Positions 8,945 to 53,700 of a stretch of 64,000 nucleotides of DNA are shown one piece after another. The translations under genes were made by a program, and so were the position numbers. Under the pieces are notes generated by a model, which searched no databases, was not told where the DNA came from, and was given only the letters and a program-made list of their open reading frames with translations. Position 1 is the stretch's first letter; each line of letters starts with the position of its first letter. Source of the stretch: Planctomycetota bacterium (lineage in GTDB: Bacteria > Planctomycetota > GCA-2746535); NCBI GenBank assembly GCA_002746535.1, contig NVWA01000016.1, positions 64,001-128,000 on the forward strand, given 5' to 3'.

Positions 8945-11900
8945 TTAAGCCAAGGAATCTAAGTGGCCATCACTATTGATACCTTTAATGGCATTTGAAG
9001 GTTTGTCAGGAATTTGCGACGAAGCACTGTTAAGAAAAATTAATTGAGAATGAAAGGGGATTTCTTTAAGCTTCTCATCGAGCTCATCTTTATGCTCTTC
9101 TGCTAAAGATTTAAAATTATTATCTTCAAATGTTAAAAATATTTGCTTACCGTGCTCTGAAGTTACAAGTCGACCCTTAACCTCTCCCAAGGAACTGAGT
9201 TCAACTTCTATATTTACTGAATATGAATTTGTCTTACCAGCTTCTTTTGAAAAATCTTCTTGTGCAACAGAAACATTAGGTGGCTTAATCTCAACATCTG
9301 GCTGTAAACTAAAAGTTAGACTTTGAATTTGATCTCTATGTGTAGAAACTCGATCAGCAATATGTTGTATACTTAAGTTTTGTTCTAACTGCCTTGTCAA
9401 TTGATGCAACCGACGAAGCTGCTGAGTCTGATTATCATTTTCAAATCGTTTAGTTTCAAATAACTCTATCTCAGATATTAATTGCTCAATTTTTTGGGGC
9501 AAGAGCAACTCGTATGTACTAACTGGTTTTAATGCATCGAAAGGTTTTGGAAATAATGACTCTTTTGGTGGAACTAATGAAGAAAGTAAATTTTTAAATT
9601 CTTGGGTAATTTCGCCTTCTATTACTCCATTTTTTGAATGCAAAAATGATGTTAATATTTCTTCAACATTTAGATCTTCATTTGCTAATTGCGCTAATTC
9701 ATTTAATAAAAATTCTGGAGATAATTTGTTTTTAATCTTACCATTAAAATCATTTAATAATTTCTGAAATGTATCCACCTCCTTTAAAAGATTTTCCGCT
9801 CCTTCAACAGTTTGTTTTTCCAGCGAGACATTAGAGTCAAAATTTATTTTACTAATTTCATTTGAAAGAATTTTAACTAAATATTCAGGAGGATTATCCT
9901 TTATAGGTAAAAATTTATTTTGATTTTCTCGACCAATTGATTCTTCTTGGTTTTGATCTTTGTCACCCACTACTATATTTTGATTACTCATGTTCTCTTC
10001 AATATTTTTTTCAATCTTCATGGAAGCGGCTAAAGGCTTCTCTAAGTTTTCAAAAATCACCTCTTGAGTATTTTTGGTATTTAAGCTATTGTTAACAATA
10101 GATTTAGTTTCGACGATCGCGTTTTCATCCAATGGTTTTCTATTGATTGTTTCAATTGTAGGTTCGCTTATTTTTATATTCACCAGAACCTCTTTTGCTG
10201 GTATGGATTCATTGGACTTACCAGCACCCATATTGCTATTAGAATGGGTCGGAGGGGCTTCAGTTTCGACATTTGAAGGATAGGCTATTTTTGCAGCTTT
10301 ATATAAAAATTCTTTAAAATCAGGTACCTTTTTTTCGTATGAAATATTTTTTTCAATCGGTTCAGGCAATGTTTGATTTTTCTGATCCGATTCAGTTGTC
10401 GTAGTATTATTGCTACTCGGAATTTTCGCAATCGTGCCTGGCTTCTTTTCTTCGATATGCAATTCTAGATCGTTTTTTATAGGTAATTCAATAGGCTGAT
10501 TACCTTCCATTTTAAAAAACAGCTCAAAGGTTTTAATTGTATCTCGAATTAAAGTTGAAACCTTTTTGTGAATTTGAATGTGATCTTTATTTATCTCAGA
10601 TTTTTTGATTTGTTTCCCATCATCAATAAGGATATTTTTTTTCTTTTCATTAGGAGCGATCGCAGCAGAAATATTCTTATTATCACCTACTAAATGATTC
10701 TCTTTAATATTCTTCGTCTCGATATCTGAATGATTTTTTTCAAATTCAATTGTCGTCTCAATCAAATTACTTTTTTGAGTCAGCATTTGAGTTGGATTCC
10801 CTATTTCACTTTGGGTAATTTTCTTATAATTAATCAATGAGCTTGATTTTTGTTCACTAGGAATGGCTGGTTGCTTCACGTCATCTGCTTTGACAACTTT
10901 ATCTTTTTTCCCCATAAATAAATCGCTGGGCTTCAATGGCTCATCGGACTTAGCGGCTTCTGAGAACTGATTATTATCAATTTCCTCAGAATATCCTGCC
11001 TCAACTGATTTTGATGTATTAGAAATAAAATCATCCAAAAGTTGTTTAATGACTTTTTTAACATCAAAATTTAATACTTCTTTTTGTTCATTTAATTTAT
11101 TTACCCCAAACTCAAATTCACGAACTTCATTACTCTTAATTCTATTATCATGGGAATAGGCAGACTTTATTTTATCTCTAGGTAAATCATTTATTTGAAT
11201 ATATTTTTTACTGCTAGTAGCTTTTTCTGGAGATTGCTTAGAAATTCGGCTAATAATATCACTTGCTTCATTAAAGCTTTCAACTGGCTCAACACCTTTA
11301 CCAGATAAGATCTGAAAAACTTTTTTGGAAAGATCGTCTGTATAATTTGCCAATTTATTAATCTGCAAGACTGTATCAGGCTTCTCATCGCCTTTCAAAG
11401 TTTTAGCGGCTCTATTTACTTCTCTATTAATGTCATTTGTTGGTTTTTCAACGGAGCTATTTGGATCAATATTAACCAATTCGGGTAATGATATTTTTTC
11501 AGAAACGAAAGGGGTGATTTTCTTATAAGTTACAATGCTCTTATCTTCATTTTTAGTTTTTGAAAATAACGCTTTCTCTTCTATTTTGGGGGACTCTTCA
11601 TTTTTCTGAGTTTCAGGCACAGCCTTTTCAAAATACTCTACAGCCTTTTTCAAAACGAAACTTAATTCTATTTCAATTGGGGTATTAGTTGATGTATCAA
11701 CCGATGTTTCAAATTCAAGTTGCTCTTCACTAACAGCTGGAAGTAATTGTTCTATTTTTTTGGCAGAAATAATAATATCAGAAAACTGCTCTTTAATTTC
11801 GCTGCTTGAGTTTTCAAGTGTAACCACTAATGCTTCGGTAACTTTATTTTCTGGCTTCGAGTCTATGTTTTCTATTATTTTGTTTTCAACATCATTTTTT

Positions 11901-12529
11901 AATGCACTAACTTGATTTAGAAACTCTGCTTTGCTTGGCTTAACTTCTGAATCAGGATGAAGATTTGCAAGAGGAATATTATGCTCAGTATGTTTTTCAG
12001 TTTCAGAAATATTGCTTTCAGATACCGTCTCCGTTATTTTTTCAAGCAATTCTTCTTTAACAGAAACAGGAATGGGCAATTGATGAATTTCCGTTTTAAT
12101 TTCCTGAATTAATTTCTCAGCTGGCAAATCATTTGTCTGTTGAATTATACTACTAGCTGTTTTAGAATCTGATATTAAAGAAAGAATCTCAATAGCCTCG
12201 TCTCTGGTTATAACATTACTCTCAGGCTTCTGATTGTTTTCGGGGACTTCATTTTCAATGGAAAGAATTAATTCAATATTTTCCTTTGTTGGCACTACAT
12301 CTTTTTTTATTAATTCATTAACGACCTTGATTGATTCTTCGGTAATTTCAACATCTAACTCTTTTAAAATATGCTTACTCTCAACATTAGATTCTATAGA
12401 ATCTTCATTGATAATGTTTTCAGCTTTTGCGTCAATTGATTCAGGGTTTTTTTTTGAATTAGATTTGGATTTATCGGGATCTTGAAGATTTATTTGCTTC
12501 TTTATTTCAATAGAAAATCCATCATTCAT
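8945..12529 (-). CDS. Large low-complexity Lys/Glu/Asn-rich protein with possible FliK-like C-terminal domain
   Basis: 1194 aa, mostly acidic/polar disordered-looking sequence; C-terminal VNIEVELSSLGEVKGRLVTSEHGKQIFLTFEDNNFKSLAEEHKDELDEKL resembles the hook-length control C-terminal domain. Confidence 0.5.
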   Translation of the reverse strand: MNDGFSIEIKKQINLQDPDKSKSNSKKNPESIDAKAENIINEDSIESNVESKHILKELDVEITEESIKVVNELIKKDVVPTKENIELILSIENEVPENNQKPESNVITRDEAIEILSLISDSKTASSIIQQTNDLPAEKLIQEIKTEIHQLPIPVSVKEELLEKITETVSESNISETEKHTEHNIPLANLHPDSEVKPSKAEFLNQVSALKNDVENKIIENIDSKPENKVTEALVVTLENSSSEIKEQFSDIIISAKKIEQLLPAVSEEQLEFETSVDTSTNTPIEIELSFVLKKAVEYFEKAVPETQKNEESPKIEEKALFSKTKNEDKSIVTYKKITPFVSEKISLPELVNIDPNSSVEKPTNDINREVNRAAKTLKGDEKPDTVLQINKLANYTDDLSKKVFQILSGKGVEPVESFNEASDIISRISKQSPEKATSSKKYIQINDLPRDKIKSAYSHDNRIKSNEVREFEFGVNKLNEQKEVLNFDVKKVIKQLLDDFISNTSKSVEAGYSEEIDNNQFSEAAKSDEPLKPSDLFMGKKDKVVKADDVKQPAIPSEQKSSSLINYKKITQSEIGNPTQMLTQKSNLIETTIEFEKNHSDIETKNIKENHLVGDNKNISAAIAPNEKKKNILIDDGKQIKKSEINKDHIQIHKKVSTLIRDTIKTFELFFKMEGNQPIELPIKNDLELHIEEKKPGTIAKIPSSNNTTTTESDQKNQTLPEPIEKNISYEKKVPDFKEFLYKAAKIAYPSNVETEAPPTHSNSNMGAGKSNESIPAKEVLVNIKISEPTIETINRKPLDENAIVETKSIVNNSLNTKNTQEVIFENLEKPLAASMKIEKNIEENMSNQNIVVGDKDQNQEESIGRENQNKFLPIKDNPPEYLVKILSNEISKINFDSNVSLEKQTVEGAENLLKEVDTFQKLLNDFNGKIKNKLSPEFLLNELAQLANEDLNVEEILTSFLHSKNGVIEGEITQEFKNLLSSLVPPKESLFPKPFDALKPVSTYELLLPQKIEQLISEIELFETKRFENDNQTQQLRRLHQLTRQLEQNLSIQHIADRVSTHRDQIQSLTFSLQPDVEIKPPNVSVAQEDFSKEAGKTNSYSVNIEVELSSLGEVKGRLVTSEHGKQIFLTFEDNNFKSLAEEHKDELDEKLKEIPFHSQLIFLNSASSQIPDKPSNAIKGINSDGHLDSLA

Positions 12530-33640: not shown

Positions 33641-33846
33641 TTTGTAATAATAAATTTTGCATCCGTAATAAATGATCAAATCAATTGAAAGCTGAAACCA
33701 TCGAAGACATTATTGAAATCGCTGCGGAACTCTAAAGCAATCTGAGTTTACAAATTGAAAGTTTTTGAAAATAATTAATTTTTCTGTTAAATAAATCTAG
33801 TGCTGCGTGTTAACCTATTTAAAAGGATATTTCACCAAGAATTCAT

Positions 33847-36800
33847 ATGAAACAATTAATTGAAGACATCATCAAAACAAATGACCAATCCAAGTGGAGT
33901 CAGCTAATTGATACAATTCATAATGACCTTCTAGCCCAATCTTATCGACTAATCCCTCATGGCGATTTGCATCAAGATGCTCTGCAAGAAAGCTGTATAA
34001 GTATCTATAAAAATCTCAATGCGTTTTACATAAAAAATAAAAAATATGACGATTACGAATTCACCATCAACTTTTCTAAGTGGTCCAGAACAATCGTTCG
34101 CAACACATCTTTCAATACTTTAAGACATAGAAAAAACCAAAATAAATTACTTGAACTCAATCCAAATTATCAAGAAAAATTAAACGAACAGATAAAAGAA
34201 AGTAAAAAAGATTCTTTTGAATTAAAAGAATATCTTAGCCAAATGCTTTGTAGCTTGAAACAAAAAGAACACAAGCTTTTGGTACTTAAATATTTTGAAG
34301 GGATGACCAATTTGGAAATCTCTACTGAAACTGGTTATCAGATTAATTCTATTCCAGTTTTAATTAACCGAGCATTAGGTCAGCTAAGAAAGCGCTTTGA
34401 ACACGTTGGCCTAACAATCGCAGCTGCAACACTTACAGAAGTTTTAGCACAACAAAATGTAACCACTTCTGTAATTACTACAATTCCTCCGGAGGTATTT
34501 CATTCAATCAAATCAATCCCATTAAAAATTGGGATTTTAACGTCATCATTGAAAGGACTACTTATGAAAAGTTTATTAATTTTAATCACCGCAACGGTGC
34601 TGAGCACTTCCATTCTGTATCTACAAACAAATGCAGAATCGGAAAAAAAAACAATCACTACTAAAAAAGAATCAACTATTACTACTAATAAAGAGGCTCT
34701 TACCAAGAGTAAAACTACTGACCAAAAGTCTAACTCTGAAGAAATAATAATTCCTGAACAAACAAGTGGGAACACTACCTCTATAAACAAACAGACTAAA
34801 ATTTATGGACTTAAAAAACCATTAGTTAGTCATATCCTACCAAATATCCAACAGTTCAGCCAATTTTTTAAAGATACCGCCTACGGGAAAATATGGGCTG
34901 ATAAAAAAATAAAAGAACAACTATCAAAAGTGAATTGGGAATTAATAGCTCCGGAACTGTTTAATATGGTCGATATCGACAGTACTTTTTGCACAATTGA
35001 CGAGTACTTATTTCTAAAAACATTACTTTCAAATACAGATGAAATAACTATTGAAGCCAACAAAAGGGAGTTTTCAGCAAGATTAAAAATCAAAAATGAA
35101 GTAGAAGAGAACTCTTTAAAAATTAAATCTGCGATAGATCTCTTAAAAAAAAGCTACAAGCTTAAACACGATAAACTTGCTGAAGTGAAACATAACATTA
35201 CATCATCCGATGGAGCTGTTTCAGTAAGCACTACTAGTATTTATCAAGATAATATTAAAAGCCTGAATAACTTAAAATACAAAACAGAAAATAATTACTT
35301 TTATATTTACATTGGTAACTTAGTCGAAATCCAAAATAAAAGCAATGAGAATAATAAAGAACTAATCTTTCGAGGTAAAACGAGACCATCAAAATCTTTT
35401 GATATTGGTAACAATGATCTTATTAGACACCCTTTTATGTATACAGATACCTCAGAAGTAACTTTTGAAACAAAATTTCAAAACAACCAATTTCATGAGC
35501 GTTCCATATCAACTAATTTGGATAAAAAATGCCTTCTCAAACCATTTATAAAATCAATTAGTGAAGAAGGTTTTACAAGTGACCAAGAAAAAAATATTTA
35601 TGCTGCCGCAAATTTCAACCTAGATGAATTTATTCTTTGGGCAAAGCCTGTTTTAAAAATCGCTCTTTCAATTTCACCATTTATGGTGGAACAAATTTCT
35701 TCCCAAATAAAAGAAAACTTAAGTGGTGAAGTCTTCATGTCATTAGGTAAAGATGGAGATATTACATTCATTAAAGCCAAATCACCCGAAAAGGCACAAG
35801 CCATGATGACAGCCTATTCATTATTCGCTACTCCCTATGGAATTATAGTTGAAAAAGGTCCAAACAACTGGATTAAAATTAAAACTTCTGACAAGTCATT
35901 TACAACAATAGAAGCTAATCTAAAAATAAAGGGATTCCTTGCCATAGCTAACTATAGTAATAAAGGACTCATCAATGGCATCTCAAAGTTTTTATATCCT
36001 ATTGCTGTCAAATACCAGCATGCAAAAGATTATAAAGAAATGGTTAAACCATGTCTGCCTATATTGACACAAAAACATTATCTAAAATATTTTGGTCAAT
36101 CAAAAATTTCAATTACAAAAAAGAACAATGTAATTATTGTAGATCAAACAACAGATATTCCCTTTCTCAGCATCACAAGCTTTTTTAATTATTTTGAAAC
36201 GTTAAATCAAAAAACACCTTCTAAAAAAATATTTAAAAATGAAGGACAAATAACAATTACCAACGCGAAGTTTAAACAAGAACTAAACTATGAAAATGGG
36301 AAAAAACAAGGTCTATGGAAAACAACTGATTTAAATGGTGCCCTTTACAGAGAAACAAATTACGATCAGGGAAAAAAATCCGGAATTCGTAAAATATTTT
36401 TTAATAATGGCACCCTCTCACATGCAATCAACTTTAAAAGTGATTCAAAGCATGGTAACTACAAACGATTTTATGGTACAGGGAAATTAAAGGAGCACGG
36501 ACAGTTTAAAAATGGTAAGAAAACTGGTTCTTGGAAATATTACCATTTAAATACATTTGTCAGCTCATCAGGAATATTCTCAGATGGACATAAAACAGGA
36601 ACATGGGAACATTTTGATGAAAATCAAAAAAAAGTGATGACATTGAACTACTCTAAAGATTCAAGCATTCCAATGCAATCTATCGTTTATCACCTCAATG
36701 GTTCTCCTAAAATCAGTATCGATCTAAAAGACCAAATTCATACCATTGAACAATACAACCAACAATCAACCTTAATAAGAATAAGCCATTATTACAATGG

Positions 36801-37488
36801 CAAAAAAGTAGGTCATTGGAAGGAATTTAACCACAATGAAAAGTTAATAAACGAGTGGAAATATAAGATGGAGTTTATACAAAATAGAAGATCATACTAC
36901 GATAACGGAAATCTAAAGAGCATCATCAATTACGAGAATTCAATGTATGACGGAAAGCAACTTTTATATTATCCTAATGGAAACATTAAATCATCCATTT
37001 CATTTTCTCTAAACTCACCGATTCCGGTATGGAAAAGATATTCACTAGATGGCGTTCTCAAAGGAGAGTGGAACATAGACGGCAAGTTCTCTGGGACTTT
37101 AAACGAACAGTATGTTTCAAAACAACTCTCAATATTCAATATTTTTGAAACTTTCGAAGATCAATTGATACTAATATCACTCAGTGGTGATGTAAGTATC
37201 AACAGTTCAAAAGTTATCTCAGCAACCAAACTGTTCAGAGGTCAAACGATTAGTTCGATTTCAAAAAATTATGGAAGTCTACTTGACTCCGATACATTAA
37301 AAGAATCTATTCTCTACCAAGAATATCATCTTAATAACCCATCAATAAATACATTTATAAAAGAAAAAATGGGTGGTGAAAAAAATTACTTTTTAATGAA
37401 TAAGAAAGTTCTGGTAAAACTTTCAACCAAAGGGAAAGTGGTAACAGAACAGGATTATTTAGAAATAAAAAATCACCCTCTAGAATAA
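33847..37488 (+). CDS. ECF-type sigma factor / TM / MORN-YwqK-like repeat fusion protein
   Basis: aa 1-185 sigma-70 r2/r4-like (DLHQDALQESCISIYKNL; LKQKEHKLLVLKYFEGMTNLEISTETGYQINSIPVLINRALGQLRKRF); TM SLLILITATVLSTSILYL; C-terminal repeats YENGKKQGLWKTTDLNGALYRETNYDQGKKSGIRKIFFNNGTL... Confidence 0.75.
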   Translation: MKQLIEDIIKTNDQSKWSQLIDTIHNDLLAQSYRLIPHGDLHQDALQESCISIYKNLNAFYIKNKKYDDYEFTINFSKWSRTIVRNTSFNTLRHRKNQNKLLELNPNYQEKLNEQIKESKKDSFELKEYLSQMLCSLKQKEHKLLVLKYFEGMTNLEISTETGYQINSIPVLINRALGQLRKRFEHVGLTIAAATLTEVLAQQNVTTSVITTIPPEVFHSIKSIPLKIGILTSSLKGLLMKSLLILITATVLSTSILYLQTNAESEKKTITTKKESTITTNKEALTKSKTTDQKSNSEEIIIPEQTSGNTTSINKQTKIYGLKKPLVSHILPNIQQFSQFFKDTAYGKIWADKKIKEQLSKVNWELIAPELFNMVDIDSTFCTIDEYLFLKTLLSNTDEITIEANKREFSARLKIKNEVEENSLKIKSAIDLLKKSYKLKHDKLAEVKHNITSSDGAVSVSTTSIYQDNIKSLNNLKYKTENNYFYIYIGNLVEIQNKSNENNKELIFRGKTRPSKSFDIGNNDLIRHPFMYTDTSEVTFETKFQNNQFHERSISTNLDKKCLLKPFIKSISEEGFTSDQEKNIYAAANFNLDEFILWAKPVLKIALSISPFMVEQISSQIKENLSGEVFMSLGKDGDITFIKAKSPEKAQAMMTAYSLFATPYGIIVEKGPNNWIKIKTSDKSFTTIEANLKIKGFLAIANYSNKGLINGISKFLYPIAVKYQHAKDYKEMVKPCLPILTQKHYLKYFGQSKISITKKNNVIIVDQTTDIPFLSITSFFNYFETLNQKTPSKKIFKNEGQITITNAKFKQELNYENGKKQGLWKTTDLNGALYRETNYDQGKKSGIRKIFFNNGTLSHAINFKSDSKHGNYKRFYGTGKLKEHGQFKNGKKTGSWKYYHLNTFVSSSGIFSDGHKTGTWEHFDENQKKVMTLNYSKDSSIPMQSIVYHLNGSPKISIDLKDQIHTIEQYNQQSTLIRISHYYNGKKVGHWKEFNHNEKLINEWKYKMEFIQNRRSYYDNGNLKSIINYENSMYDGKQLLYYPNGNIKSSISFSLNSPIPVWKRYSLDGVLKGEWNIDGKFSGTLNEQYVSKQLSIFNIFETFEDQLILISLSGDVSINSSKVISATKLFRGQTISSISKNYGSLLDSDTLKESILYQEYHLNNPSINTFIKEKMGGEKNYFLMNKKVLVKLSTKGKVVTEQDYLEIKNHPLE

Positions 37489-40758: not shown

Positions 40759-42300
40759 ATGAAAAAAATATTACTCCTTAACTTCTTAATACTTATGTTT
40801 GTAAATATACAATCCCAAGAAATAAAAAAAGATTCTAATAAGAAAGTTAAAACAGTCATCAAAAGCAAAGCACCAAAAGAAGACAAGAGCAACACCTATA
40901 AAGTAAAGAAAGAAAAGTTTAAAATTACTTTCAAATCAAAAGGCCAACTCGTACCAACAAAATTTCAAACGATTTCATTAAATCCTAAAAAATGGAACCT
41001 CTTTAAAATTACTAAATTAAAAAAACATGGCGACATGATAAAAAAAGGTGAATCGATAATTGAATTTGACCAAAAGCCATTAGATAAAAACATAAAACAA
41101 CAAGAACACCTTTTAATTGTTTCCCAACTCACATTAAAAGAGTCTTTATTGAAACTAGAAGAAATGAAATCAAGCCAAGAAATTAATCTTGAAACAGTAA
41201 ATAAAAAATCAAAACGATTAAATGAAGATATAAAAGAATATTTTAAAAACGGTCAGAAATGGGATAAAAAATTTAACGAAGACTATCGAAAACGTGTCGC
41301 CGAATACCTTTTATACAATATGGAAGAACTCAGACAATTAGAAAAGATGTATAAAGAAGATGACTTAACTGAAGAGACCGAAGAAATTATATTAACCCGC
41401 CAAAAAAATTCTGTTAACCACATGAAGTTGTGGGCTAGTCATTCTGATTATCGTAGCAAACAATTCAACATAAAATATCTTCCACGTATGAGTGAAGATC
41501 AAAAATCTCTCTTAAAACAGGACAAAATCTCTCTTAAAACCTTAAAAGAAAGTATACCTTTAGCGATTGGTATACTTGAAAAAGGCATTGAAAAACAAAA
41601 AGAAACCATTTTAGATTTAAAAATAAATCTAAAGAAATTAAGTGCTGATAAACAATTGTTCAACATTAAAGCTACTATGAACGGTATCGTTTATTACGGT
41701 CAATTAAATGGTGAAGGATGGCTCAATGCTCAAAACTCAGCAAATTCATTGAAGATACACTTAAATGCGCGTTTATTTACAACCATGATGACAATTGTCT
41801 CCTCAGATAAATTAATTGTTTATTCCCAAATCTTAGAAAACCAATTGCGATGGATGAACGAAAATCTAAAAGGGAAAATGAATCCTATTGCCTATCCCAA
41901 TCAAAAATACAGCTGCAAGCTTTTAAAAATTAAAAAAATACCCTCGAGCAAGTTAAAATTCAACACACACTTTTCTATCAAACCTCTCTCAAAAACCCCA
42001 AGTGACTTATATCCAGGTTACAATGTAAATTTAAAATTTACTCCCGTAGACCTAAATGATGTTATCAGCATTCCGCTTCCATTTTTGCATGAAGAAGATG
42101 AACTTAAATTTGTCTACTTGAAAAGCGATAACGAACTTAAGTTTATTAAAAGAGAAATTACAACTGGATTGAAAAATAAAAAAACTATCCTGGTAACAAA
42201 TGGTTTAACGCTTGATGATATATTATTAAAAAAGAAGCCAAAAAAGGAGGCTGCGAAAAAGACTAAAAAAGCCGAAAGTAATCAAAAAGATGAGAAGTAA
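40759..42300 (+). CDS. HlyD-like periplasmic adaptor protein
   Basis: Signal peptide; beta-barrel/lipoyl-like VKKEKFKITFKSKGQLVP..TKLKKHGDMIKKGESIIEFDQKPLDKNIKQQEHLL then long helical hairpin. Start at MKKILLLN (40759). Confidence 0.55.
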   Translation: MKKILLLNFLILMFVNIQSQEIKKDSNKKVKTVIKSKAPKEDKSNTYKVKKEKFKITFKSKGQLVPTKFQTISLNPKKWNLFKITKLKKHGDMIKKGESIIEFDQKPLDKNIKQQEHLLIVSQLTLKESLLKLEEMKSSQEINLETVNKKSKRLNEDIKEYFKNGQKWDKKFNEDYRKRVAEYLLYNMEELRQLEKMYKEDDLTEETEEIILTRQKNSVNHMKLWASHSDYRSKQFNIKYLPRMSEDQKSLLKQDKISLKTLKESIPLAIGILEKGIEKQKETILDLKINLKKLSADKQLFNIKATMNGIVYYGQLNGEGWLNAQNSANSLKIHLNARLFTTMMTIVSSDKLIVYSQILENQLRWMNENLKGKMNPIAYPNQKYSCKLLKIKKIPSSKLKFNTHFSIKPLSKTPSDLYPGYNVNLKFTPVDLNDVISIPLPFLHEEDELKFVYLKSDNELKFIKREITTGLKNKKTILVTNGLTLDDILLKKKPKKEAAKKTKKAESNQKDEK

Positions 42301-43453
42301 AATAAATTATTGTTTTATTTTTATTCTGGCTGAACTGCTTATATCGTGTACAAAAATTTCGGTTCAATCTCCATTAGATTCTTGTTCTAAAGCCATCGAA
42401 AAGGGCACCACCTATTTAATTGAAAATCAACACCCTTCAGGAAATTGGGGATCAGCTACAAGAACTAAAGGTTTAAATATTTATGCTCCAATACCAGGAG
42501 CACATCATGGTTTTAAAATGGCCTCAACGGCCTTATGCCTTTCAGCTTTGCTTAAATTAGACTCCAAAAATAAAAAAGTTGGACAAGCAATTATAAAAGC
42601 TACCCATTGGATAATAAAGGAGATACCAAAGGTTAAAAGGGCTACTCCAGATGTGATCTATAATATATGGGCGCATGCCTATACAATAGAAACACTTATT
42701 CAGCTGCATCAATATTACAAATCTTTGAAAATCGATAGCTATCAATTAAAAATTGAAAAACTAATCAACCATCAAATAGCGATGCTTTACAAATACGAGG
42801 TTGTCGACGGCGGCTGGGCCTACTATGATTTTAATATTGGTTCAAAGAAACCGGCGGGGTCTAGTTCAAGCTTTACCACTGCAGCAACACTTATATCATT
42901 AAAATATGCTGAAAAAAATGGCTACAAAATAAATCAAAAAATAATTAACCGAGCAATTAAAGCATTAGTAAGAATGCAAAAACCAGATAAATCATATCTA
43001 TATGGCGAATATTTAAAGTGGCGTCCCATGCACCCTGTTAACCGACCTCCAGGAAGTTTAGGCCGAACCCAATCCTGCAATCTAGCACTTTATTTATGGA
43101 GCCATGAAAGTATTCAAGAACAACATTTATTAACCGGCACTGACAAGCTCGCCCGTAAACACTACTGGCTAGATGCTGGAAGAAAAACAGTCGTACCACA
43201 TGAATCTTTTTTTGCTATTGCAGGATATTTTTATTATCATGCCCTTTATTATGGAAGTAAAAATCTATCCCACCTACCTAATCTACATAAAAAAAGATTA
43301 TCAGAAACATTTATAAAGTATTTATGCAAACGCCAAGAAAAAAATGGCTCTTGGTGGGATTTCCCCTTATATAACTATCATCAATTTTATGGTACAGGCT
43401 ATGCTCTATCAGCATTGATCGATTGCCGAAAAGCTCAAATTAACAATCCCTAG
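42290..43453 (+). CDS. Prenyltransferase/squalene-oxidase-repeat-like lipoprotein
   Basis: Lipobox AELLISC; alpha-alpha toroid repeats AIEKGTTYLIENQHPSGNWGSATRT, HQIAMLYKYEVVDGGWAYYDF, KYLCKRQEKNGSWWDFPLYNYHQFYGTGYAL. Confidence 0.65.
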   Translation: MRSKINYCFIFILAELLISCTKISVQSPLDSCSKAIEKGTTYLIENQHPSGNWGSATRTKGLNIYAPIPGAHHGFKMASTALCLSALLKLDSKNKKVGQAIIKATHWIIKEIPKVKRATPDVIYNIWAHAYTIETLIQLHQYYKSLKIDSYQLKIEKLINHQIAMLYKYEVVDGGWAYYDFNIGSKKPAGSSSSFTTAATLISLKYAEKNGYKINQKIINRAIKALVRMQKPDKSYLYGEYLKWRPMHPVNRPPGSLGRTQSCNLALYLWSHESIQEQHLLTGTDKLARKHYWLDAGRKTVVPHESFFAIAGYFYYHALYYGSKNLSHLPNLHKKRLSETFIKYLCKRQEKNGSWWDFPLYNYHQFYGTGYALSALIDCRKAQINNP

Positions 43454-46578: not shown

Positions 46579-49500
46579 GTGACTGAATTAAAAAACTTGA
46601 GCATTCAGTTAGCCAAAAAATATTCAGATCGCCCCGATCTTCATGGGCCTTTAATTAAGTTAATTACTAAATATTCTTTTCCACAATTAGATTCAAAGGA
46701 TAAGCCCTCTATCCTTGAAATGGCCGAATCGATAACAACTATAATTAAAACAATACAAGATTACGACACAAAACATCAATTAACCTTTTTCTTAAATGAA
46801 GTTAGCAAAGAGGCAAAGGGGATAGTAGCACAAGTTCTACAATCTAGTGATCAAAAACCAATTGATCTAAATTTTCAAAATAATGCTTTAAATATTCATC
46901 CCTCTTATTTGGAATCAGCCGCTGATTTTAAATCTCAAAAGGTATTTGAAAATCTATCACAGATCAATCAAGAAATATTATTTATTAAAAAACAAGATCG
47001 TCCTCAATTAAACAATTTATTAAACCAGCTTGAAAAAGAAAAATCAAATTTATTAGCTAAGAATTCTTGGCTGATAGACAATCTTCTATATTGCATCACC
47101 AATTCGCCCCTGCTGGATGAATTACCCAATTCCTCCGAGTTAAAAAATAAAATCTTTGATCGAATAAATTCAAAATCAAAACAATCCAAAGATGCCGTAA
47201 AAGAAATTCTCAGCGACCTTGACTTTACACCATCAAGAATTTGCGATGGCTTTAAACATCTGGATGAATTAAAAAATAATCAAGGTGTCTATTTTATAAA
47301 ATCAATTAGCGAATTATTTAATGAGTACGAACACGAAATCGTAAATTACCTCGTATACTCAAATTCAGTACAAAGCTACCAAATATTATCCAGCAAATCC
47401 CTTAATTGGAACAATCACACAGCTGCATTAACAATGCTGAATTTAAAATTCCCCGAAAGTTTAAACCAAACCCCCCAAAAAGTAATTGGTGAAAGATTTA
47501 ATCAACATAAAAAATTGGTGAATAGCATAGAGGAATATATTCAACAATTTCCCCTTTTCAGCATAGTCGACATTATATTAAATCTAAACCTCGATGATGG
47601 TACTACTAAAATAGAGAACATTATTCCTGCACCTAAAACTTTAACCGCTCATGAGTTTCTAGGCCAAAGAAATGTAACACCAGAAGAAAAATCATTAATA
47701 CTGAATACCCCCGAAAACTCAGATAACATCGAATCAATAGATGCTTTGGAAACAAAAGAAGGCACGATTAGCAAAGCAGCTAAATTTGCCGCCGACATCC
47801 TACTTGACAAACCGGACATCTCAGCAATTGAGAAAATACCCCTCGCAAGTGTTAAAGTGCAATCAGAAGAATTCTCGAGAAGACAAAAAGATTTTATCCA
47901 AAACACAAACACCATTTGGCATAAACATGTTCAGCCTTTTATAAAACAAAATATTTTTCCACTGGTGGCATCCATTTGTATTTTTATTGGAGTACTATCT
48001 TTGATTGTTGCCTTTTGGGATAAATCCCCCTTCATTAGATACCTGGCGACACCCCTATCTATATTATTAGCCGGGCTGGGTTTACATAAAATAGGTAACT
48101 GGCTATATCAGCTAGATGAAAAAAGTAAGACCCCAGCAAGTATACTTAAAGCATTGTCTCTCTTCTTGGCACCACTAAGCTTTATTATGGTTTCAATACT
48201 AAGCACAGATCCCGAGATTTCATTAATGGTAAAATTTGTTGCGACACCTCTATTAGCGATTGGATTATTAGTTGGTTGGAGAATTGTATTCAAAAGCAGT
48301 ATGAATCTCATCAACCCAATAATGCAAAAACCACACACTATTTCATTATTAATATTGAACGGGCTGCTTTTACTACTGCCAATATATTATTATGCTGATA
48401 ATCATATTACCGATAATCTTATTTTAAGTAAATCTATATTAGTACTTGGATTTTATTTAGGATTTGGATTTCTATTCTTAAAAGTTAAAGGCATCTTAAA
48501 AGAATTTTATAAAGACGAAGCCATTACTAGCCAATTGGCTCCACTATTCTTTATTATCACTACAATAGGCACCTATATAACGGTATGGGGTATAACCCAT
48601 ATTCGACTAAATGAATTACCTGAAGCATTCACCTATTCAATCCTCGTATGCTTCTTTGGTTTAATGACCTATGTAATTGAATTTTACATAAGACGTAAAA
48701 ACCGACTTACCACACTTTCATATGTGGGCACCTCATTTCTAATATTAGGAAATTTGCTGGCTATTTTTAACCCAACAATACGACCAATTGTTCTTCTTGT
48801 CACTGCCAGCATTTGGTTCTATCAAGCTCATCACCGAAAAGATGAAAGGCACTATACCATAAGTATAATTCTAGTATTATGCGGAATTACTTCATTTGCC
48901 TTTTATAAAGATTTCCCAACCTTTCTTTTTCCTTATTTGATAGCTCTTCAAGCTTTATCACTAATATTCACATCTAAGAAATTTAAAATCTTCAAAAACA
49001 TCATTCCAATAATTTTTTATCCGTTTGTAATTATAGGAACATTGATCTCTCTATACTTCACATGGACACAGCCAACACTTCAAATAATTAGTGCTCTTGG
49101 ACTAATACTACTAAGTGGATTAATTATTTATAAAGCAAACCAAGACAAACAAATTGAACAAATCCACACGGGTCTTCTGATTTCAATAACGGCACTCCCA
49201 TTCTTAGGTCTAGCTGATACGATCAACAAAATTTACCTCGGGAATATACTACTTTTTGGCTTTAGCATGTTAGGGTTTTTATGGATCGGTCTTTGTTATC
49301 ATTATAAAGAATCGTTCCTAGTAAAGGCAAGATCAACAGGATTATTTATTATCGCCATCATAGCCTTTTGTGTACTTCTGGTGAACTTATCTTTTGGTCC
49401 AGATCCTTTAAATTCAGACATTCGCCAATATTTAGTAATGGCAGGCCCTATATTGCTAAGCGTGATCTTTTTTATCAATGGATTTAAAACAAGATCTCAA

Positions 49501-52500
49501 ATACCCGTGTACCTAGGTCTGTTTACCCTTGTTTTTATATTCCCTGAAATAAAAAATCATTATAACATTGTCATGAAATCAGGACTAGGTAGCGCAGTCT
49601 CAATGGCTTTTATGCTGGCAATTGCCTATGGATTAAAACATATTAAGCAACTTAAAGATCTCGATGATGGCGATATGATTCTAGATAAAACACCATTCCC
49701 TCTTCATAAAAAGGATCACCGACTTTTCACAGAACCACTTATATTGGCAGCCCTTGTTTTAATAGCAAGGACAGTATTTAAATCATATCCTGTCAATATT
49801 TATCATGGTTACTTTGATAATTCAATTGAATCAGCAGATCCTTTTGAGATCAAGACACTTTTCGCATTAGCAATTCAGAGTGTTGGATTATTATTCTATA
49901 CTTTATGGTATAAGAAAAGTATTTTCACTTATATTGGCTTAGCACTTTCATTCATTACCGCTATTCATTTTTCTCATTTTATAAACATTGAACTTATAGC
50001 GATATATATGCTAGTACTCTTTTTCTGCTGGGAAGGCCTTTCTTATATATCCCAACGAAAAAATATTTCCGATAATTTAATTCAAAGCCCTATTCGAAAT
50101 GCATTTCTACTGGCAATGATTGCCTTCACTTTCATCTTATATCCCCTTTATACTTTAAATGATTTTCAACTCCCTCATTTATTTGCCGTACCACTATATT
50201 TATTTTTTATTTTCAAATCTTATCGATTTAATATCTCCAAACCCTGTCTTCCTCATATTACGATACTTTTTCTGTTGTGTTGGCAAACATTTATTTTAGT
50301 GTCTACCAATGGCATGTCCATTTTAAGTTTGATGAAACCAGACTCACCCTTTTATCTTTTTTCATTTATATTCATCTCTCTCTGGGCACTACCAACTTAT
50401 TATTTCGAATTTAAAAAACAAGAATCTTTATTTCGCTATTTCTACCAAAGCCTTTTTCTGCCACTAATTATTTGTTTAATAATCACTGTCCATTATATAA
50501 AAATGATGTATCTACCAGGATATGTACAACTTGAACTGGTCACAGCGCCATTCACCTTAGTCGTAGCAACAATAGCATTAATTCTACTAGCGAGATTAAT
50601 CAGAATATCATTTAATTGGCTTTGGATTACTTTAATCGTCTATGCACTATTTATAAGCTTTATATTTCCAGACATTTCTACCGCAATGATTTACCATCCC
50701 ATTGCACTAACAGTATTGATTATCAGCACAAATATCTTTAGCTTTCTCATTACTAAGTTTGACCATTATTTTATTCCTAAAATTAAAGCACCACTCATCA
50801 TACAAAAATTGCCTAGCACACAATTAGTACTGACCATCTTTGGCCAATTGATAAAACTAAGCATCGTTTTCTATTTAATATGGGTTGCTCCTTTCAAATT
50901 CACACCATTTACAACGGTTGCACTATACCTCATTGCCATTACTTCAATACAAGATGCTAAATTCCTTAAAATCAGTAAAGCATTTTATTTCTGGCTATTC
51001 TTCACATTCACAAATATATATTTAGTACTCGCATTAAACAATAGCTTCCCTGATTTTAGATTTTTTAAACATCTCCATATCAATCATTTGATTGCCATAG
51101 GATTGTTCATTTCGTTGTTGATAGCCGTTGTTTTTGATAAGCTAAAATTCTTCAAAGATAATACAAATAAATCCAGCTTCTATTTAATAAAATACGTTGC
51201 TGCAGCCTCTATTCCCTTTTTAATTTTTATTCAATATTGTCTGATCAGAAATATAAATATCCCATGGGAAAGAAGTGTCGTTTCTGCCGCATTAGCTCTT
51301 GGATCTGCCTTATATTTAAGGTATATGGTCCCAGACCAAGATAAGCAAAAAAGCTATGGGTTATTTACCTTCAGCCTATCTATCAGTATTTTTTGTATAG
51401 GTTTATTGATACTTGAAAAAGTCATGAAAATTGAAATGACACCTATGATTGCCTTTGCCATTCTAGCTCTTTCGCCATTTTGGTTTGCAATCAAAGCCGA
51501 ATTAAATTTTAAAAATAACAACATACACAATAGCGCAAGAGATGCCGCACAAATTTTATTGACTCTCTTGATGGGTTTTTATGTATATCAAAACATCTTT
51601 GATATTTTCTTCTTGCCTGGTACTGAAACCAGCATGACCTATTATTTTCAAAATGCATTTGTTTGTTTCATTGCATCTGTCTTAATGTGGCGTACTCATA
51701 AAATGAAAGGGCATTCCGCGATACCCTATCTCAGTATATCTATGATGCTCATTTCTTTATTTTTTATGTTTAATAATTTCACGCCAATAAACCTAACCAT
51801 AAATCCAGCCATGTCATGTTATACAGCAATAATACTAGGGGTCATCATTTGGTTAAATATTGAAAATGATCAACCACTCTATAATCTACTTAAGAATTCT
51901 GCTAAACTGAGTGATGAAGAATGGGTTAATATCAAATCAATAATACACACAATTGTGATTATTGGGTCACATATACTTTTCTTATTAGCCCTATTCGAAG
52001 GAACTGAAGATAACAATGCCGCCCTAATTCTAGTTGGCTTGGCTAGCTTATGGAGCTATTTGGGGATCTCTAAAAGAAAAACTCGTTTCTTGCACTTAGC
52101 CTTCTTTTATTTATTACTCGTCTGTTTAATAATTCCTCATACTTCAAAATTCATTCCAGATCATCTGACTGTTTTGCTATTAACATCTATGCTAGCCGGA
52201 TTACTAATAACATATCAAATCTTCTTAAAAAATCATTTCATCGAACAGTCACATAAAATCGTAAAAGTTATTGTTACTTGGTCTACTTTATTATTTACAA
52301 TAATTTTCTTTATTTCATTCCTGGAAATAGGAAACCACAAAAACATCATCCTTACATTATTAGCAACATCTTGGCTTCTAGTCTTATGCTCTCCATTTAT
52401 AAATAAAAATACTTCTAATGTTTTTGAAAAAATGTTAGTTTTAAGTTTTATGAATTTGCCCTGTTTAATATTAGCTCAAATATTTCATACAGGTCTTTTT

Positions 52501-53700
52501 TATAATGTAATTGTATTGCTACTCTCAATCACATCGATCAATTTAGGGGTTTACCTTTTGGATCATAAAAAGAAATCTGACTGGAGCGCTAAACATAAAA
52601 GTATCAATAGATTTGGCAGTTATATCATCGTTCATTATTTCCAACCAACTACGCGTTATGCCAGAATCTCTTTATATATGGCCAGTACAATTTCTCTTGC
52701 AATTCAACTAATTTATTTTGCAACAAGCTATTCTTCTTTTCAAAATTCTCACATCATTTACATGCTTTTTTTACATGCGCTAACACAATTGTTATTAATC
52801 GCCTTTTTATTTCTTGAAGCTAAAAGAAGTCAAAAAGTTATTTTTATGGTTATTGCAGAATTAATATACTTCTCATTTTATATGCAGATGAGATTAGCAT
52901 TACCTGTAGCATTCAACATTATATGGGATTCCGCATATGATGTTTACTTTTTAATGATTCAATCTTTTATTGTTGTTTCTCTACATTCAATAATTCAAAA
53001 ACAAGAGTCCTATATTCAAAAACCTATCAACTTCTCAATTTTAGGGTTTCCAATCTTAACCATTATGCTTTGCATGTATTTTAATATCGATCAAAATCTT
53101 ATGATGCATACGCTACTCTTTTATTCCGGAATATTTATCTGGCAATCGTACAACGAAAGAAGTAGGTTCATACTCTCATACGCTTTTTTAGGTTTAAATG
53201 CTTATGTCTTACTACAGTTATTTCACAATCATATTCATTCAGTACAAGCCTATGTGGCTCCACTGTGCATAACTTTATTAATTTATTCTCAAATGTTTCG
53301 AGATCGTACTTCAAAAACTACTGCTAATATATTGCGAACTATATCGCTGATAGCTATTTTGGGGACATCAGGGTGGGAAATAATTGCTAAAAATTTAACA
53401 TCCCCTTCTCATCATGCCATCCTAATTATCTTATGTAGTGCCGCCATATATTTTGCTGCTGTTTTTAAAGCGAAAATTTATGCCGTCATAGGCTCAACTG
53501 TTTTTCTTTTAGACATCGGAACTATCATTTATCTGTTAGTAAAAAATCAGGATAAAAATATGATTATAATTAGTCTTGGATTATTACTAACTATTGGGGG
53601 CAGCATTCTTCTCGGAGGGTATATTTATTATCGCAAAAACGAAAAAGCTATCGACGAAAAAATAGAAAAATTAAAATCTTTGATTAAGAGATGGGATTAA
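46579..53700 (+). CDS. Giant polytopic membrane protein, unknown function
   Basis: 2373 aa; about 450-aa soluble N-terminus then dozens of hydrophobic segments. GTG start with GGAG RBS. Confidence 0.75.
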   Translation: MTELKNLSIQLAKKYSDRPDLHGPLIKLITKYSFPQLDSKDKPSILEMAESITTIIKTIQDYDTKHQLTFFLNEVSKEAKGIVAQVLQSSDQKPIDLNFQNNALNIHPSYLESAADFKSQKVFENLSQINQEILFIKKQDRPQLNNLLNQLEKEKSNLLAKNSWLIDNLLYCITNSPLLDELPNSSELKNKIFDRINSKSKQSKDAVKEILSDLDFTPSRICDGFKHLDELKNNQGVYFIKSISELFNEYEHEIVNYLVYSNSVQSYQILSSKSLNWNNHTAALTMLNLKFPESLNQTPQKVIGERFNQHKKLVNSIEEYIQQFPLFSIVDIILNLNLDDGTTKIENIIPAPKTLTAHEFLGQRNVTPEEKSLILNTPENSDNIESIDALETKEGTISKAAKFAADILLDKPDISAIEKIPLASVKVQSEEFSRRQKDFIQNTNTIWHKHVQPFIKQNIFPLVASICIFIGVLSLIVAFWDKSPFIRYLATPLSILLAGLGLHKIGNWLYQLDEKSKTPASILKALSLFLAPLSFIMVSILSTDPEISLMVKFVATPLLAIGLLVGWRIVFKSSMNLINPIMQKPHTISLLILNGLLLLLPIYYYADNHITDNLILSKSILVLGFYLGFGFLFLKVKGILKEFYKDEAITSQLAPLFFIITTIGTYITVWGITHIRLNELPEAFTYSILVCFFGLMTYVIEFYIRRKNRLTTLSYVGTSFLILGNLLAIFNPTIRPIVLLVTASIWFYQAHHRKDERHYTISIILVLCGITSFAFYKDFPTFLFPYLIALQALSLIFTSKKFKIFKNIIPIIFYPFVIIGTLISLYFTWTQPTLQIISALGLILLSGLIIYKANQDKQIEQIHTGLLISITALPFLGLADTINKIYLGNILLFGFSMLGFLWIGLCYHYKESFLVKARSTGLFIIAIIAFCVLLVNLSFGPDPLNSDIRQYLVMAGPILLSVIFFINGFKTRSQIPVYLGLFTLVFIFPEIKNHYNIVMKSGLGSAVSMAFMLAIAYGLKHIKQLKDLDDGDMILDKTPFPLHKKDHRLFTEPLILAALVLIARTVFKSYPVNIYHGYFDNSIESADPFEIKTLFALAIQSVGLLFYTLWYKKSIFTYIGLALSFITAIHFSHFINIELIAIYMLVLFFCWEGLSYISQRKNISDNLIQSPIRNAFLLAMIAFTFILYPLYTLNDFQLPHLFAVPLYLFFIFKSYRFNISKPCLPHITILFLLCWQTFILVSTNGMSILSLMKPDSPFYLFSFIFISLWALPTYYFEFKKQESLFRYFYQSLFLPLIICLIITVHYIKMMYLPGYVQLELVTAPFTLVVATIALILLARLIRISFNWLWITLIVYALFISFIFPDISTAMIYHPIALTVLIISTNIFSFLITKFDHYFIPKIKAPLIIQKLPSTQLVLTIFGQLIKLSIVFYLIWVAPFKFTPFTTVALYLIAITSIQDAKFLKISKAFYFWLFFTFTNIYLVLALNNSFPDFRFFKHLHINHLIAIGLFISLLIAVVFDKLKFFKDNTNKSSFYLIKYVAAASIPFLIFIQYCLIRNINIPWERSVVSAALALGSALYLRYMVPDQDKQKSYGLFTFSLSISIFCIGLLILEKVMKIEMTPMIAFAILALSPFWFAIKAELNFKNNNIHNSARDAAQILLTLLMGFYVYQNIFDIFFLPGTETSMTYYFQNAFVCFIASVLMWRTHKMKGHSAIPYLSISMMLISLFFMFNNFTPINLTINPAMSCYTAIILGVIIWLNIENDQPLYNLLKNSAKLSDEEWVNIKSIIHTIVIIGSHILFLLALFEGTEDNNAALILVGLASLWSYLGISKRKTRFLHLAFFYLLLVCLIIPHTSKFIPDHLTVLLLTSMLAGLLITYQIFLKNHFIEQSHKIVKVIVTWSTLLFTIIFFISFLEIGNHKNIILTLLATSWLLVLCSPFINKNTSNVFEKMLVLSFMNLPCLILAQIFHTGLFYNVIVLLLSITSINLGVYLLDHKKKSDWSAKHKSINRFGSYIIVHYFQPTTRYARISLYMASTISLAIQLIYFATSYSSFQNSHIIYMLFLHALTQLLLIAFLFLEAKRSQKVIFMVIAELIYFSFYMQMRLALPVAFNIIWDSAYDVYFLMIQSFIVVSLHSIIQKQESYIQKPINFSILGFPILTIMLCMYFNIDQNLMMHTLLFYSGIFIWQSYNERSRFILSYAFLGLNAYVLLQLFHNHIHSVQAYVAPLCITLLIYSQMFRDRTSKTTANILRTISLIAILGTSGWEIIAKNLTSPSHHAILIILCSAAIYFAAVFKAKIYAVIGSTVFLLDIGTIIYLLVKNQDKNMIIISLGLLLTIGGSILLGGYIYYRKNEKAIDEKIEKLKSLIKRWD

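Follow-up and report, generated by a model that had tools for sequence, protein, structure and literature searches.

The gene at positions 33847-37488 (plus strand) of the window, by which we mean the whole 64,000-nucleotide stretch of planctomycete DNA analysed, probably encodes a transmembrane signalling sigma factor made of a single polypeptide, which would be freed by regulated proteolysis and would activate its own promoter first. From N- to C-terminus the product is predicted to consist of an ECF sigma part, a linker, one transmembrane (TM) helix and an extracytoplasmic sensor. The frame runs without interruption from ATG to stop (1213 aa), and the reading of the ORF, the profile matches and a paralog confirm what the initial annotation had described, a single open frame going from an ECF sigma factor to MORN/YwqK-like repeats. 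The paralog, on contig C40, shares this architecture and is 51% identical across the whole length; because it is full-length, the artefact against which that annotation had warned, two genes joined by an assembly error, is excluded.

Profile matches, sequence similarity to PDB entries and the predicted fold all strongly support the assignment of the N-terminal part to the ECF sigma factors. The NCBIfam profile TIGR02937 (sigma70-ECF) matches aa 1-186 with E=2.9e-15 and 56.3 bits (cut-off 42.9), in line with the sigma-70 identity proposed earlier; of the Pfam profiles, Sigma70_r4_2 falls slightly below its cut-off in the window protein (24.9 vs 25.7) and Sigma70_r2 is weak (15.8, with a cut-off of 24). 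The best sequence relative in the PDB is SigW (E=3.8e-6). An AlphaFold2 model of aa 1-265, based on 42 family members (mean pLDDT 84.4), is confident for region 2 (aa 1-105, 33847-34161, plus strand; pLDDT mostly 87-98) and for region 4 (aa 126-186, 34222-34404, plus strand; about 91-96), and it has regions 2 and 4 but no region 3, as expected for the ECF class. Using Foldseek, the nearest folds were those of SigW, AlgU, sigma-E and SigK, mostly in complexes with anti-sigma factors. Region 2 aligns to that of sigma-E with a TMt of 0.72-0.79, and domains superposed singly give an rmsd of 2.5-2.8 A for region 2 and 1.1-1.3 A for region 4, the relative placement of the two regions in the model differing from that in the Foldseek structures. 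It might be argued, from the score of region 2 below the Pfam cut-off, that this part is no longer a sigma factor and belongs to an envelope protein in which it now only binds DNA or is vestigial. We consider this very improbable, given that Sigma70_r2 exceeds its cut-off in the C40 paralog (28.5), that TIGR02937 is above threshold, that the two paralogs have kept 92% identity in region 4 while their sensors diverged, and that both genes share a promoter-like element, discussed below.

The strongest hydrophobic segment of the window protein lies at aa ~234-260 (34546-34626, plus strand). Its score was reached somewhere in 339 of 2000 whole-protein shuffles and is therefore unexceptional alone; when only a stretch equal in length to aa 187-300 was considered it was reached in 35 of 2000. 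The claim of a TM segment is thus weak for the window protein alone but strong through its family, since each of the 33 sigma-TM proteins of the genome (33/33) possesses one hydrophobic segment at the equivalent position (near aa 204-250 and 25-60 residues past region 4). AlphaFold2 also predicts aa 227-264 as one helix. The net charge of 15 residues, summed over the 33 proteins, is +71 before the segment and -21 after it, the N-side value being the larger in 29 of them, and hydropathy and charge together suggest an N-in/C-out orientation. Moreover, of 16 other MORN_2-type proteins read in the genome, 15 begin with an export signal, an N-terminal membrane segment or a lipobox, in agreement with a location of the MORN_2 repeats outside the cytoplasm. 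Tethering of the sigma factor to the membrane with an extracytoplasmic C-terminal part, the arrangement put forward by the initial annotation, is therefore well supported by these sequence comparisons.

An alternative is that the C-terminal part is cytoplasmic, the segment being a buried helix and the extension an interaction scaffold. Some sigma-TM proteins of G039, another genome of this phylum, do bear ankyrin repeats, which are more usual inside cells. A scaffold role of this kind has been proposed for ECF57 (WD40) and ECF42 (TPR), whose extensions are thought to act by protein contacts (PMC8999054). We regard this as improbable here: against it stand the single segment and its positive-inside charge pattern, seen across the 33 paralogs, the export of the MORN_2 proteins of the genome, and other outer domains of usually exported kinds (CarboxypepD_reg, SpaA, SdrD_B, STN-like). 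Planctomycete ECF proteins, of the class noted for WD40, have also been found in Triton X-100 and SDS fractions (PMC8567305).

The genome count of homologs, which had been suggested as a check, revealed a large family. A scan with Sigma70_r4_2 gave 65 matches, 57 of them above cut-off, and 33 of the 65 are proteins of 342-1341 aa that possess one hydrophobic segment, in the equivalent position; as this count comes from the long-frame proteins among the region-4 matches, read individually, the set comprises at least 33 members. About half of the ECF sigma matches of the genome thus carry anchor and sensor in cis. Their outer parts vary, including CarboxypepD_reg/SpaA-type sandwiches (some with a PDZ-like end), squalene-cyclase-like and STN-like domains and others with no match. 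A model of the sigma-linker-TM part finds long-frame members in many genomes of the phylum. At two G039 loci (L062 and L064) the ankyrin repeats are in the outer part of sigma-TM proteins, an unusual place for them. The subfamily alignment, scanned against named genomes, gave three distant matches and, in a Bacteroidia MAG, one segment of 100% identity: at L140 (JAESSM010000135.1, labelled Bacteroidia bacterium NORP286), 229 aa are identical to the sigma-linker-TM part of L010, and the contig is probably a misbinned piece of the source organism or of a very close one.

Concerning the outer part, the TM helix is followed by a Lys/Thr/Ser-rich stalk (aa 261-315, 34627-34791, plus strand) and by a sensor domain of unassigned fold (aa 316-790, 34792-36216, plus strand), for which no family above cut-off was found in Pfam or PHROGs and no sequence match in the PDB. 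Comparing it with other outer domains by hhalign gave nothing usable, and an impression of likeness to DUF3352-like domains could not be supported. In AlphaFold2 the fold of the outer 952 aa was not predicted from the two-sequence alignment (pLDDT 32). Among 392 genomes of the phylum the sensor domain is confined to the window gene and its paralog, and scanning the alignment of the two against named genomes gave no match. The repeats that follow (aa 810-1085, 36274-37101, plus strand, degenerate mid-way) belong to the MORN_2/YwqK type, the profile PF07661 matching with E=7.7e-14 and 50.6 bits (cut-off 29.6). The initial annotation was correct on their presence, but they end at ~37100 rather than ~37060 and give way to a C-terminal tail with no repeats and no family (aa 1086-1213, 37102-37485, plus strand). 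We also observed that at least 10 short MORN_2-type proteins have in common an N-terminal membrane signature (LLNPLVVSAFILVLMLGSLAHLMYGSCQTSKWHY-like; L003, L005, L009, L017, L021, L022, L029, L104, L105 and L107) and represent an expansion of exported proteins in this genome.

Identity between the window protein and its paralog is unevenly distributed. It reaches 64% in region 2, 92% in region 4, 77% in the juxtamembrane linker (45-50 aa; aa 187-233, 34405-34545, plus strand; modelled as a helix at 190-202 and then with low confidence) and 81% in the TM helix, but only 24% in the stalk, 38-47% in the domain without family, 39-58% in the repeats and 48% in the tail. It appears that the domain reading the -35 box has been kept together with linker and TM, while the sensor has drifted between the paralogs. 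Since linker, TM and region 4 are more conserved than stalk and sensor, the linker probably does more than tether passively and is a candidate built-in inhibitory or signal-passing segment.

A bipartite promoter-like element (33784-33816, plus strand) is present upstream of the gene and also upstream of the C40 paralog. It is formed by TGTTAA (33785-33790), a spacer of 17 nt and TGTTAAC (33808-33814), and it ends about 30 nt before the ATG. The ungapped similarity between the two upstream regions scores 22, a value never approached in 500 shuffles (none above 13), and in 6.76 Mb the extended pattern, allowing up to 2 mismatches, occurs only upstream of these two genes, against 2 chance matches for the reversed control. 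When the genome was searched for TGTTAA-N16..18-TGTTAAC, 4 places were found vs 3 for the reversed control, so that only the register common to the paralogs carries weight. A second subgroup, with 14 members, possesses in most of them an upstream TGTC(A/C)C-N15/16-TG(T/C)CAT, where the boxes are conserved and the spacer is varied. Its strict scan returned 9 places (control 0), of which 7 are directly before sigma-TM genes and the remaining 2 are in or beside other frames, not preceding a gene; with longer patterns and up to 1 mismatch, all places (7/7) precede sigma-TM genes. A regulon search beyond the sigma genes gave no other targets, the list nearing background at 2 mismatches, and no such conserved upstream element was found for the subgroups L122/L125/L129, L099/L120 and L006/L077.

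The elements are thus almost confined to positions upstream of sigma genes, pointing to self-activation, and TGTTAA-N17-TGTTAAC can be considered a candidate autogenous ECF promoter. We infer that the sigma factor itself reads its upstream element, which alternatively could be the binding site of another regulator or have been retained from duplication. Upstream of L010, L011, L019, L074, L076, L085, L098 and other loci a further conserved block, TTTTCAA..CAGAAAC..TATTTTGATATAATTTAAAAT, was noticed on the 5' side of their bipartite element; it may be a duplication remnant or else an upstream promoter element rich in A/T.

Pairwise comparison by segment within the family revealed an apparent natural chimera, L008 (G000:C69:37122-37787), which combines the promoter and sigma part of L076 (C87) with an L007-type (C55) linker, TM and outer domain; the labels L078, L081 and L090 denote L007, L008 and L019 again. 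The sigma parts of L008 and L076 are 88% identical and their outer domains are not common, whereas L008 and L007 are 93% identical in linker-TM and 87% in the outer domain but only 61% in sigma. The upstream sequence of L008 follows the same division, being close to that of L076 (score 52) and hardly to that of L007 (score 11). From these identities, promoter and sigma seem to travel together, and the putative exchanged cassette is the linker-TM-sensor part. L008/L076, with sigma and promoter in common, and L007/L008, with the sensor but less of the sigma in common, constitute a natural domain-swap series, in which short constructs could show what linker, TM and sensor each do and whether cleavage is needed; the self-promoter is a ready reporter for each sigma factor. 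It is tempting, though somewhat doubtful, to generalize that this lineage wires many different envelope sensors to a few common, self-activating promoter classes by cassette exchange behind near-identical sigma modules, with the short zinc-free linker as built-in anti-sigma, and that such proteins form a major signalling class.

As for the mechanism, membrane and linker would keep the tethered sigma factor from core RNA polymerase. A change in the outer domain, caused by an envelope component being bound or a partner being lost, would expose the stalk to a site-1 protease, after which an S2P-type protease would cut in or near the TM helix. The freed sigma factor would transcribe its targets through TGTTAA-N17-TGTTAAC, its own gene first and probably that of the paralog too, and two paralogs with nearly identical region 4 (92%) and diverged sensors would bring two signals into one promoter class. 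Proteolytic release is possible by analogy with IutY, which has the same layout and is released by Prc and then RseP (PMC5411451, PMC8999054). S2P-family proteases are present in the genome, but this says little because they were found in all 14 control genomes as well. The main rival explanation is that the sigma factor is active while tethered, recruiting RNA polymerase near the membrane, and that the outer domain acts allosterically, without proteolysis. Conservation of linker and TM is close to that of the sigma module, as expected if a conformation is passed through them, and in ECF41 and ECF238 control is exerted by C-terminal extensions that change conformation (PMC8999054); nevertheless we judge activity in the tethered state unlikely, considering that IutY, the closest studied layout, needs cleavage by RseP and is activated by removal of its extension alone (PMC5411451, PMC8999054).

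Where the mechanism is known, most ECF sigma factors are kept in check by a separate anti-sigma factor (PMC8103513). Around the window gene lie genes for LigA, a DinG-like helicase, a beta-propeller and a squalene-cyclase-like protein, and a product that matches no Pfam family; no anti-sigma gene was found among these neighbours, consistent with the one-protein system originally suggested. That such a system would be unprecedented is not supported, since the kind is already established by IutY and by the actinobacterial ECF52, and this genome alone contains 33 proteins so built. IutY of Pseudomonas putida (ECF243) has been studied experimentally and joins a cytosolic ECF sigma factor, one TM and a periplasmic domain in one polypeptide without a separate anti-sigma factor (PMC5411451, PMC8999054), an arrangement that here is predicted only. 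Its periplasmic CSS anti-sigma domain, however, works with an outer-membrane receptor; in the window protein no CSS (FecR-like) domain was found with Pfam, and no receptor gene was found among the adjacent genes tested. ECF52, represented by SCO4117 of Streptomyces coelicolor and described as restricted to Actinobacteria, has the order sigma, zinc finger, TM and carbohydrate binding (PMC5826349). As in ECF48 and ECF53, its sigma factor is joined through a TM to an outer binding domain and regulated release has been proposed, but these groups have a zinc-binding anti-sigma motif, HxxxCxxC, placed ahead of the TM and after the sigma part, and this motif has no match anywhere in the window protein.

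The large paralogous sets and the long, varied C-terminal extensions recall ECF57 (PMC8999054, PMC8567305), and some planctomycete extended ECF proteins were recovered in detergent fractions (PMC8567305). With Pfam the window protein has no WD40 match, and the two conserved cysteines that link regions 2 and 4 in ECF57 are missing, no cysteine being common to both paralogs. The ECF01-Gob group of Jogler 2012 is said to consist of planctomycete ECF sigma factors with WD40 extensions. A named ECF group may exist for the window subfamily, as our comparison was made apart from the classifications of Jogler 2012 and Casas-Pastor 2021. What appears new is the unmatched sensor joined to MORN_2 repeats, which in this genome usually belong to stand-alone exported proteins or lipoproteins and here are fused to a sigma factor, together with the zinc-free linker, the size of the set, the exchange of exodomains and the private promoter signatures; in the literature searched, no description was found of so large a set of interchangeable proteins with promoter signatures of their own.

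Elsewhere in the window, two long frames, of 2373 codons (46579-53700, plus strand) and 1194 codons (8945-12529, minus strand), have no Pfam match at E 0.001. Near the window gene, at 42290-43453, lies an exported squalene-cyclase-like (alpha/alpha barrel) protein, and two other sigma-TM proteins (L131 and L089) carry a domain of this kind as their outer part.
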